IMG/VR virus record: IMGVR_UViG_3300047547_000372
Location: 1 to 34,684 of that record
DNA length: 34,684 nucleotides
Source: a virus
Strand: one strand, 5' to 3'
Position 1 is the stretch's first letter. Every line of letters starts with the position of its first letter. Under the pieces are notes generated by a model that saw only the letters and a program-made list of their open reading frames with translations, was not told the origin of the DNA and did not search any database. A program made the translations under genes and the position numbers. Positions 8,605-28,081 of this stretch are shown here, one piece after another.

Positions 8605-9504
8605 ATGGCATATAGTAAAAGAAACTCCAACGGCCAAGCAACAATGGCAAACAGTGAGCCAGTGGTGATTGCGTCAAACCAATCAGCAGTGCCTACATTG
8701 GACACCAATTCAGCAGCAACAAAGACAGCTGTGGAAGCAATCAACACGGTTCAGGGTGCAATTGCGGATGCCATTGTGGCGGCTGGAGACCCGGGAACAA
8801 TTTCAGCAAAGTTGCGAAGGGCCACGCAAGGACTTGAAGACCTGAAGACAGGCATTGTGTTGGCAGCGGGAACCAATTCAATTGGTAAGTTGGCAGCAAA
8901 CAGTGGTGTTGATATAGGTGATGCGACAATAAATAATGCCATCACAGAACCCGTGCCTGTTCAGTTAAGACAACGTAACCAGACATTCAGGTTATTTGTA
9001 CCAAAGCAAGCTGTAGGGGCAAATCTGGTGTATTTTGATTTATTCAACGCAAGTGGCTCAGGGGTGGTGTTGCGAATAATACAAGTGACACCAATTGTTT
9101 CTGGGGCCGTTGCAGTTACCGGAACTCTGGGAGTTGATTTGTTTCTGACAAAGACTTCAGCTGTTGGTACCGGAGGAACAGCAGCCACAGCCAATGGAAC
9201 CAGTTTAACGGCGGCAACCATTACCGAAATGGATAGCGGCAATACAAACCCTCATGCCAACATCACAGCAAGGCTGACCCCATCTGGTGGTGCAACAGCC
9301 GGTGCCGTTATTGGCTGGGCCTGTGTATTTCCTGAAGAAACAAATGCTGCGGCATATTTCGGACAAACCATTGACCTTGCAAGAAGAAACAACAATGATA
9401 TTCAGCCAATAATCATCAATGCCAATGAAGGAATCAGGGTGGTGCAGGGTTCTGTGGCTTCTGTAGGTAACATTGGATTTGATGTGGTTTTTGAAATTCA
9501 GTGA
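8605..9504 (+). CDS. Virion structural protein, fibre/decoration-like
   Basis: The protein has 299 residues. The N-terminus holds the widespread virion motif MANSEPVVIASNQSAVP (about residues 14-30), then a helical TKTAVEAINTVQGAIADAIV segment and beta-rich, Gly/Ala/Thr-rich sequence to the end. The motif is found in many phage tail and decoration proteins, often followed by adhesion domains. It begins four bases after the large tail gene. The exact position in the virion cannot be told from sequence. Confidence 0.6.
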   Translation: MAYSKRNSNGQATMANSEPVVIASNQSAVPTLDTNSAATKTAVEAINTVQGAIADAIVAAGDPGTISAKLRRATQGLEDLKTGIVLAAGTNSIGKLAANSGVDIGDATINNAITEPVPVQLRQRNQTFRLFVPKQAVGANLVYFDLFNASGSGVVLRIIQVTPIVSGAVAVTGTLGVDLFLTKTSAVGTGGTAATANGTSLTAATITEMDSGNTNPHANITARLTPSGGATAGAVIGWACVFPEETNAAAYFGQTIDLARRNNNDIQPIIINANEGIRVVQGSVASVGNIGFDVVFEIQ

Positions 9505-10177: not shown

Positions 10178-11392
10178 ATGAGAGTAGTAATAACCACATA
10201 CACCTTTGATGCCTCGGCCAAAACCGTGGACTTTAGTGGGTATAGCAATTTTGATGAACAACGCCTGCAGGCCATTGTGAACATTACCCGTGGTGCGGTA
10301 ATTTATGCCCCTGGTTTATCCGGCAAAGGATTAACTAGCATTGCCGGTGATGTGCTCACATTGGAGTATGACACCACGGCCCATGCCGATGCGGACAAGT
10401 TAATGCCTATTTACATTGAGGCTCCCACCTCAACGGGGTTGGCCACCAGTGCAAAACAGGATACCATTATTTCCCACCTTGCGGATTTAAAACTGTATAC
10501 CGATACGTTGGAGGCGTTGATTACATCAACCAACGGGTATGTAGATAACCTTGAGTCTTTAATAACCACACTCAACGGATATGTGGATGGAGTGGAGGCA
10601 AAACTGGACAGTTTAATTGCCAAGGATTTTGCCACCGAAACAACACTTGCATCTGTGCTGGCTAAAATTATTGCAGCACCTGCAACAGAGGCAAAGCAAG
10701 ATACACAGCAGACCACACTCGCTGCAATCAGAACCGCTGTTGAGATAATTGATAACTTCATCAGTGCCGGTAAGGGATTGGTTACGGAGGATAATTCCGC
10801 AGCCATTAAGACTGCAGTTGAAACCATTGACAATTTCATTTCCGGTTCGAGAGGTTTGGTAACAGAGGATAACTCTGCGGCAATCAAAACCGCTGTGGAG
10901 GTGATAGACAACTTTATATCCGGCTCCAGAGGACTTGTGACTGAAGATAATTCAGCCGCAATTAAAACTGCCGTAGAAGCACTTGACAACATGATCAGCG
11001 GCAATTACGGGCAGGTGAAAGCATTTGCTGATACATCTGGTTCTGGTGGGCAGAGCATTAGCAGGGTAATTAGCGCTGCCTCTACCAATGCCACAAGTGC
11101 CAAGGGTAGTGCCGGAAAAGTATATACCATTATTGCCACCAACATCAATGCAGCTGTGCGGTATTTAAAACTGTACAACAAGGCCAGCAGCCCAACAGTG
11201 GGAACAGATACTCCGGTATTTACCATTGCCATTCCGGGCAATACTGCAGGTGCTGGTATTGTAATTTCATTTGGTGATACAGGTGTGAACTTCGCCACAG
11301 GTATTGCCTATGCCATTACCACAGGTGTGGCGGATGCTGATACCGGTGCCGTTGCTGCCAATGAAATAGTAGTTCAAGTTCTATACGCATGA
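10178..11392 (+). CDS. Repeat-containing tail-fibre protein
   Basis: The protein has 404 residues. The first 85 residues are beta-rich. Residues 90-180 carry heptad-like coiled-coil segments (AKQDTIISHLADLKLYTDTL, AKLDSLIAKDF). Residues 184-277 hold three and a half copies of a 26-residue repeat with the conserved blocks KTAVE-IDNFISGS and RGLVTEDNSAA. The C-terminal 120 residues form a beta domain ending in AANEIVVQVLYA. This is a typical elongated trimeric fibre layout. The 3' end overlaps the next gene by four bases (ATGA). Receptor contact through the last domain is inferred. Confidence 0.65.
   Translation: MRVVITTYTFDASAKTVDFSGYSNFDEQRLQAIVNITRGAVIYAPGLSGKGLTSIAGDVLTLEYDTTAHADADKLMPIYIEAPTSTGLATSAKQDTIISHLADLKLYTDTLEALITSTNGYVDNLESLITTLNGYVDGVEAKLDSLIAKDFATETTLASVLAKIIAAPATEAKQDTQQTTLAAIRTAVEIIDNFISAGKGLVTEDNSAAIKTAVETIDNFISGSRGLVTEDNSAAIKTAVEVIDNFISGSRGLVTEDNSAAIKTAVEALDNMISGNYGQVKAFADTSGSGGQSISRVISAASTNATSAKGSAGKVYTIIATNINAAVRYLKLYNKASSPTVGTDTPVFTIAIPGNTAGAGIVISFGDTGVNFATGIAYAITTGVADADTGAVAANEIVVQVLYA
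10727..11008 (+). repeat. 3.6 copies of a 26-residue (78-bp) coding repeat
   Basis: Copies cover residues 184-209, 210-235, 236-261 and part of 262-277 of the fibre protein. The protein units are nearly identical, but most codons differ at the third base between copies (see findings). Confidence 0.85.
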
Positions 11393-16119: not shown

Positions 16120-16724
16120 TTCTTTATAGCGTTTAAAACCTCAAATTCCTCAATCCACCCATATACTATTTTAGCAATAGGGTGATTATCGGGAGTGTCA
16201 CCTACATCAATTCCTAAGAAAAGACGTTCAATAGGTCGTGAGGCGTTTCTTTCACTTAAAACAAGATTAAAGGTATCACTGTCTCTGGGTAGTGATTTAC
16301 AAATTGTGCCATTGAGGCAGCAACAATCGCCCTCATAAACAGAACCATTTATATTACCTTCTTTCATCTTCGCCTTTAAATTTGGGATTTCTGATGTGGC
16401 AAGAGAAAGAACTTTAAATAAATCTTCTTTTGCTCCTCTGAGGTTGGCTCCTGCGAGGTCGGCTCCTTCGAGGTCGGCTCCTGCGAGGTTGGCTCCTCTG
16501 AGGTTGGCTCCTGCGAGGTTGGCTCCTCTGAGGTCGGCTCCTGCGAGGTCGGCTCCTTCGAGGTCGGCTCCTTCGAGGTCGGCTCCTGCGAGGTCGGCTC
16601 CTTCGAGGTCGGCTCCTGAATCAACAGCATTTTCAACAGTTTTTTTAACTGTATTATCTTCGCACCCTAACTCAAATAGGGTGTTTAATGTCCAACGGTG
16701 TTTAATTTGTATTTTGATATTCAT
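16116..16724 (-). CDS. Pentapeptide-repeat protein with C-terminal domain
   Basis: The product has 202 residues. Residues 1-37 form a charged lead-in; residues 38-97 are 12 uninterrupted pentapeptides of the form A(D/N)L(E/A/R)G, followed by AKEDL. Twelve repeats make three coils of a right-handed quadrilateral beta-helix. The 105-residue C-terminal part contains CCC (GDCCCLNG) and [20 protein letters not shown], unrelated to the repeats. Known pentapeptide proteins such as MfpA and Qnr mimic DNA and protect or inhibit gyrase, but they have longer solenoids, so this role is only a possibility. It sits in an ATGA-coupled accessory operon. Confidence 0.8.
16434..16613 (-). repeat. Twelve 15-bp tandem repeats (pentapeptide array)
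   Basis: The 15-base unit, on the plus strand GGCTCCT(G/T)CGAGGT(C/T)-like, repeats 12 times. Units differ at only a few positions and are otherwise identical, unlike the diverged repeats of the fibre gene. Slippage or unequal crossing-over should change copy number easily. Confidence 0.9.
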
Positions 16725-26908: not shown

Positions 26909-28081
26909 ATGTTTTCTCTTTACTTAAAGGACCCAAAAAGCAGCAGAACAACGGCCATCAGGTTGCGGGTTTATTTAAAGGGGAAGCCACACCATTACTC
27001 CACCGGAGAAAGCATTTACCCCGATGCGTGGGATACTGTGGAGCAGCGATGCAAAACAGGGGTAAAGTTTCCCATGGCACAGAATACCAATTTACGGCTT
27101 GGCAGAATAATACAGGCAGCAGGGTTGGTGAAATCCCGGTTTGATACCGATGGAGTAAAGCCAACATGGCCACAGTTTAAAGCGGCACTGGATATTGCAC
27201 TGGATAGGGGTACGGACGAGGGTATTGGTTTTTGGACGTATGTAGATAGGCTAATGCATAACCTTGCTGCCAGCAGGCCGGAACTTACAAAGGGATTGAC
27301 CCGCAATTCCATACTTACATCATACCGGCAGACATACAATTTGCTGCGATCCTTTGAGGCCACATTTAAGAAGTTGGAGTGGGAAACATTTGATGGAAGT
27401 TTTTATGTGAGGTTTGTGGATTACTGCCAGCGCAAAAGGGGGTACGGTGTAAACAATACCGGCAAACACATTAAGACCTTAAAGACCTGGTTGAATGCCG
27501 GGCTGTTGGATGGGGTAAATACAGGTCTGTATTTTAAGCGGTACAAGGTTTTATCCGAAAGAACAGCAGAGGTGTATTTGACCCGGGCTGAAATTGATGG
27601 ATTGATTGGGTTGGATTTGCACGGACAGGCGGCATTGATTAGGGATATATTTGTTTTTGCATGCTATACCGGACTCAGGTATGTTGATTATACCTCAGTT
27701 AAAAAAAGCGCCATCCATGACGGGAATTTGTACCTGCACCAGAGTAAGACAGGAAGCCCTGTAATTATACCACTGAGGCCAGAGTGTTTGAACGTACTGA
27801 ACCGGTACGGAGGGGAGCTGCCAAAGCCACCCGAAAACCAAACCATGAACAAGGTGTTGAAGGAGTTGGCCTTTTTGTCAGGAATTGACAAGTCAAAAGC
27901 TGACAAGGTTAAAACCCATACAGCACGGAGGAGTTTTGCCACCAATCTGTATTTGGAAAACTTCCCATCCCACGACATAATGAAGATAACCGGGCACAAG
28001 AGTGAAAAAAGTTTTCTGCTTTACATTCGCATGGCTCCGGCAGAGGCGGCCAGACGACTGAGTGAGCACTGGAAACTGTAA
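26909..28081 (+). CDS. int: Tyrosine integrase
   Basis: The protein has 390 residues. Residues 1-60 form the N-terminal arm-binding domain (SLYLKDPKSSRTTAIRLRVY), about 105-215 the SAM-like core-binding domain, and 220-390 the catalytic domain. All catalytic residues are visible: R257 (YTGLRY), K280 (QSKTG), H337 and R340 (HTARRS), H363 (TGHK) and the nucleophile Y372 (LLYIRM). This is the common Bacteroidetes phage/element type. It inserts and, with a directionality factor, excises the prophage. The HTH protein at 32215 is a possible partner. It directly follows the arm-type repeats. Confidence 0.93.
   Translation: MFSLYLKDPKSSRTTAIRLRVYLKGKPHHYSTGESIYPDAWDTVEQRCKTGVKFPMAQNTNLRLGRIIQAAGLVKSRFDTDGVKPTWPQFKAALDIALDRGTDEGIGFWTYVDRLMHNLAASRPELTKGLTRNSILTSYRQTYNLLRSFEATFKKLEWETFDGSFYVRFVDYCQRKRGYGVNNTGKHIKTLKTWLNAGLLDGVNTGLYFKRYKVLSERTAEVYLTRAEIDGLIGLDLHGQAALIRDIFVFACYTGLRYVDYTSVKKSAIHDGNLYLHQSKTGSPVIIPLRPECLNVLNRYGGELPKPPENQTMNKVLKELAFLSGIDKSKADKVKTHTARRSFATNLYLENFPSHDIMKITGHKSEKSFLLYIRMAPAEAARRLSEHWKL

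Follow-up and report, generated by a model that had tools for sequence, protein, structure and literature searches.

The locus described here raises the question of why neighboring copies of a peptide repeat should be nearly identical in protein and yet have so few codons in common. The window that we analyzed is a whole virus record of 34,684 bases with genes for a terminase, portal, holin, integrase, and cytosine methyltransferase, and the repeats lie in a virion-type protein (Table 1). Three 26-residue units follow one another in tandem at 10721-10954 with a partial fourth directly after them, and Tandem Repeats Finder reports a period of 78, 2.8 copies, and 71% matches. At the protein level the repetition far exceeds what chance would give. 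Between units 2 and 3, 25 of 26 residues are identical, but only 4 of 25 codons are; the two units differ at 9 of 9 fourfold sites and agree at 53 of 78 nucleotides, while unit 1 matches either of them at 21 of 26 residues. A first-pass annotation of this DNA had pointed out these units and explained them by strong protein-level constraint together with selection against repeated DNA. The observation itself is real, and the three codon series that it quoted for LVTEDNSAA are correct; of the explanation, the part concerning the protein is well supported, and the part concerning repeated DNA is not.

Table 1. Features of the window discussed in the text
Feature	Position	Strand	Size or evidence
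Repeat unit 1, AAIRTAVEIIDNFISAGKGLVTEDNS	10721..10798	+	78 nt, 26 aa
Repeat unit 2, AAIKTAVETIDNFISGSRGLVTEDNS	10799..10876	+	78 nt, 26 aa
Repeat unit 3, AAIKTAVEVIDNFISGSRGLVTEDNS	10877..10954	+	78 nt, 26 aa
Partial, diverged fourth unit, AAIKTAVEALDNMISGNYG	10955..11011	+	sequence reading, unit comparison
Repeat-bearing virion-type protein, 404 aa: N-terminal domain, helical stalk, C-terminal beta domain	10178..11392	+	ORF; AlphaFold2 model
Long helix predicted at residues 91-150 (stalk, upstream part)	10448..10627	+	AlphaFold2 model, pLDDT about 61-71
C-terminal beta-sandwich domain, residues 284-404	11027..11389	+	155 relatives in viral contigs; AlphaFold2 model
Neighboring protein containing a single related helix motif (NSAATKTAVEAIN) and, from the same superfamily, a GVDIGDATIN motif	8605..9504	+	ORF translation; blastp to L002 and L021 proteins
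Antisense ORF facing the repeats, 197 codons	10411-11004	minus	open frame
Pentapeptide-repeat protein, PF00805	16116-16724 (array 16432-16618)	minus	profile match; repeat finder

The dN/dS and saturation analysis that the annotation had proposed as a check gives, for units 2 and 3, a dN of 0.056 and an undefined dS with saturated silent sites (NG86). With dN far below dS, the units look essentially as expected of copies that duplicated long ago and have since been under ordinary purifying selection, the outcome that the annotation itself had named as refuting its proposal. Its point that amino acids, too, would have changed by drift does not hold, because under purifying selection the silent sites saturate and the residues are held; the same saturation means that the duplication of the units cannot be dated. 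Our preferred reading, to which we assign a probability of about 0.75, is that the units arose long ago as copies of a conserved stalk module of 26 residues and reflect purifying selection with saturated silent sites. Purifying selection would hold the peptide, the silent sites would have mutated to saturation, and the codons of each copy would now be roughly independent of those of the others.

The module is seen, with the consensus IDNFISG[SAT][RK]GLVTEDNSA[AS]I, in 12 viral contigs, one of them near-identical to the window. This near-identical relative (L013) is the same contig as L001 and L005, carries the same three units, and differs from the window at a single position over 13.2 kb and nowhere over 12.7 kb. 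For the comparison between viruses we used 18 module copies, drawn from the window together with 11 other contigs. At twelve core positions all 18 copies have the same residue with mixed codons, although this apparent invariance is inflated at the residues of DNFIS[GA]x[RK]G and LVTEDNSA, since a match to one or the other was a condition of the scan. Out of 2,919 pairs between viruses, 942 have the codon in common against 969 expected (mean z -0.09, sd 1.01), and an identical 24-mer, IDNFISGSRGLVTEDNSAAIKTAV, occurs twice in the window and also in L006 and L012, where any pair shares only 4-8 of 24 codons. The units inside the window gene differ from each other about as much as from the copies of unrelated viruses. 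Within genes, 54 of 160 codons are in common against 62.8 expected; module sharing is low in the window (17 vs 26.8 expected) and L014 (6 vs 8.9), high in L009 with its three unit copies (24 vs 19.7), and neutral in L002. When carriers were compared with the window (blastp 1e-4, fetched flanks), they matched in this protein and in short motifs of the 8605-9504 protein, besides the antisense frame, and the 11 other carrier contigs appear to share almost nothing else detectable with the window phage. The protein-level constraint proposed earlier is borne out by these data: the same peptide is kept in otherwise unrelated phages with silent sites randomized.

A linker-blind scan with the helix pattern IKTAxExIDN only, which is free of the residue bias of the first scan, returned 69 distinct copies. 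Their linkers fall into an EMQVDV type (54 copies), a FIxxx[RK]GLVTED type (7 copies, of which the near-identical relative L013 contributes two), and others (8 copies), and no intermediate between the EMQVDV and RGLVTED types occurs among the 69. With those seven copies as its basis, the scan supports a discrete module. Nearly all carriers are metagenome contigs. By tblastn the repeat was found in none of the deposited phage genomes, and host genomes (one genome each from 84,980 species) gave no confirmed relative of the module and the helix pattern in 2 genomes. Against Pfam, the best score of the 26-residue unit is 18.8 bits, below the cutoff of 40; PHROGs gave weak matches only, with the best (E 0.0004) outside the repeat; and no solved structure is convincingly related to the unit by sequence, the best match being a ribosomal protein at E 0.058. 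In the collection of papers that we searched, nothing was found that deals with codon-diverged phage fiber repeats or with modular phage proteins of this kind.

As a measure of codon sharing within the window gene, we counted amino-acid-identical positions with the same codon, summed over all unit pairs. The 31 codons observed in common compare with 31.7 ± 4.0 expected from a synonymous shuffle inside the repeat (P 0.51), 39.0 ± 5.2 from window-wide usage (P 0.06), and 43.5 ± 5.6 from the gene's own usage (P 0.009). Codon use is more even inside the repeat than across the gene; gene-usage nulls score this evenness as signal, and the local shuffle removes it. We do not rely on the local shuffle alone (P 0.5), because it is blind to the evenness of codon use inside the repeat, which could hide diversification. 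Adjacent units have 15 codons in common against 21.9 ± 3.6 expected, the gene reaches z -2.3 at lag 12-40, and a whole-gene synonymous shuffle gives z -1.87 (P 0.029), which is not significant after allowing for the 41 genes tested. Depending on the null, codon sharing in this gene is typical to mildly low, and the codon difference between units is about that of independent choice per unit or mildly beyond it. The longest exact match between units is 9 nt, against 13.2 ± 3.1 under random codons with window usage, and a match of at least 20 nt arises in only 4.7% of random-recoding trials.

To place the window gene among its relatives, loci were gathered by the module or its helix pattern and by the C-terminal domain, and all internal protein repeats of each gene were compared with whole-gene synonymous shuffles. 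The 41 related genes have 2427 codons in common against 2305 ± 39 expected, and 15 further genes have 626 against 562 ± 19. With redundancy removed, the 22 genes with closely spaced repeats (lag 12-40 residues) give 478 against 458.5 ± 17, and the 51 genes taken over all distances give 2682 against 2508.7 ± 40.5; a few large genes weigh most heavily in these pooled counts, and the median z per gene of 0.29 at short lag and 0.27 overall agrees with them. At lag 41-100 the related genes give 565 against 546. We looked for depletion of codon sharing in the related genes at every distance, adjacent units included, and did not find it; across genes of this kind, sharing is not below that of independent choice. 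In the nonredundant set, z is below -1.64 in 4 genes and exceeds +1.64 in 8. None of the 22 genes has a lower short-lag z than the window gene (as L001), which ranks third from the bottom among the 51 overall, and L014, which carries the same unit, has z -1.8 at lag 12-40. One gene this low is expected among about fifty tested.

Repeats of other kinds in the same loci provide a control. The 57 other repeat-bearing ORFs, picked by length alone so that some are antisense or spurious, have 2747 codons in common against 1770 expected and range widely, many being near random and some near-identical in DNA. In L157, 538 of 607 repeated codons are identical, and the pentapeptide array of the window repeats a 15-bp DNA unit about 12.5 times (88% matches), its repeated codons agreeing at lag 5 in 43 of 44 cases. 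This array and the control ORFs show that both this genome and the assemblies used here contain DNA-identical repeats. We note that in the protein encoded by the ORF at 2347-3339 of L107 a [PV]AGT[NA]NIGDVDV motif occurs seven times, with inter-repeat codon sharing near random (188 vs 170.8 ± 12.0).

These results bear directly on the idea that synonymous changes breaking identity are favored because identical copies recombine and get lost, which we now regard as highly unlikely. The shortfall between adjacent units of the window gene and its short-lag value, the P of 0.009 against gene usage, the low z of L014, and the difference at every fourfold site between units 2 and 3 all point toward such avoidance, and codon diversification does stop recombination in engineered vectors (PMC12365220). 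However, avoidance predicts codon sharing below random, and it is unsupported because the related genes show no such deficit, their sharing being random or slightly higher at both lag ranges. In L009 the units have more codons in common than expected, the window genome retains its 15-bp array, and random codons alone keep exact matches below 20 nt in 95% of trials. We therefore reject selection against repeated DNA across the related genes; in the window gene alone it may have a small effect, given a mild depletion of z about -1.6 to -2.3 against gene- or window-wide use that becomes zero against local use. Alternatively, instead of being duplicated within this gene, the copies could have come from other phages whose own copies had diverged, recombination bringing them in already different in DNA. 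Codon sharing within the gene as low as that between unrelated viruses would fit such acquisition, as would the many combinations in which the modules and C-terminal domain are found and the lack of DNA-identical neighboring copies of the unit among those seen, but for none of the units did we find a donor whose DNA matches, and old local duplication predicts the same data, so that we consider it unlikely.

Two further explanations can be given very little weight. Since short-read metagenome assemblers collapse exact repeats, the recovery of codon-diverged arrays only could be an assembly bias, and the prevalence of metagenome contigs among the carriers is in keeping with this; it is nevertheless very improbable, given that DNA-identical repeats were recovered in the same contigs (L157 and the window pentapeptide array) and that L001/L005 reproduce the window array. 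Barely credible is an overlap of two genes, in which the antisense ORF would constrain both peptides and leave only silent sites to vary. Its frame is open, its peptide is similar in other carriers, and, as read from the sequence, antisense wobble positions lie opposite sense wobble positions. However, the repeat residues include no Tyr, His, or Gln, whose codons would give antisense stops, the antisense similarity follows from sense conservation, and synonymous recoding yields an antisense run of at least this length in 6.7% of trials. On this last result, we rejected an antisense gene as the cause of the codon pattern.

The reading of the units as old copies of a stalk module can be set against the predicted structure of the protein. 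Residues 2-82 resemble an annotated virion structural protein in MW202722. The AlphaFold2 model contains helices at residues 91-150, 173-196, 204-223, 230-249, and 256-288 with short loops between the stalk helices, at a low confidence in the stalk (pLDDT about 50-71 in the full model, average 71 in a stalk-only model). From residue 291 onward, the C-terminal domain has a pLDDT of 84-97 per ten-residue block, and at least 155 relatives of this domain occur in viral contigs (L097-L175 among the loci) behind very different upstream stalks. Similar proteins are also present in Caulobacter, Xanthomonas, and Synechococcus phage records. From the model we infer a layout in which an oligomeric helical stalk joins an N-terminal attachment part to a C-terminal knob and the conserved peptide is probably an oligomeric stalk element. 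Each unit would comprise a short helix (AAIKTAVExIDNFIS) and a loop (GSRGLVTEDNS), and the units would help to form an oligomeric, probably trimeric, predicted stalk between the N-terminal part and the beta-sandwich knob. The copies would be stable against recombination because their codons are randomized and the longest exact match is 9 nt; low recombination between them would then be a by-product that needs no special selection. It is possible, though in our view doubtful, that the peptide is carried between unrelated environmental phages as a discrete module and kept almost unaltered past the saturation of its silent sites for a role more specific than holding the stalk together, such as binding a conserved partner or guiding assembly; the linker split without intermediates fits a discrete module.

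Fold comparisons of the C-terminal domain gave middling matches, with phage cement proteins standing beside unrelated nucleoplasmins. The domain aligns with the KHP40 cement protein (7dou) at Z 7.2 and rmsd 3.3 over 100 residues, a Z that is typical of common beta-sandwich arrangements and is equaled by the unrelated nucleoplasmins. Stalk matches to helical bundles (Z 8-10) were not used, since bundles score so by their common arrangement and the model is weak there.

Phage fiber and virion surface proteins can have stalks built from repeats, as trimeric coiled-coil or beta elements. The window protein is like them in its predicted layout of attachment-like N-terminus, repeated central stalk, and compact C-terminal beta domain and in the constraint on its repeats at the protein level, but differs in that its unit lacks a Pfam match above cutoff and has weak PHROGs matches. 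Persi, Wolf and Koonin (2016, PMC5120217) describe new repeat copies as diverging rapidly within a protein before fixation; in both cases single repeats become fixed and stay conserved for long periods, whereas the window copies are almost identical in protein with saturated silent sites. Codon-diversified constructs (PMC12365220) likewise combine a near-identical peptide with different codons and short exact DNA matches, but were designed to differ, whereas the related phage genes are close to random codon choice.

A simple account thus replaces an attractive but unsupported one, in which codons are shaped to stop recombination, and a cheap test is available for such claims: inter-repeat codon sharing can be compared with random choice and with copies in unrelated genomes. 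The results point to a few short peptide modules that recur in many environmental phage proteins with conserved residues and randomized DNA, and for which there is neither a Pfam family model above cutoff nor a convincing relative among solved structures. The conserved module is itself interesting as a putative stalk element. The integrase gene of the window (26909-28081) matches Phage_int_SAM_5 and Arm-DNA-bind_5, which suggests that the phage is temperate; going by the distribution of these two domains, its host may be a member of the Bacteroidota.
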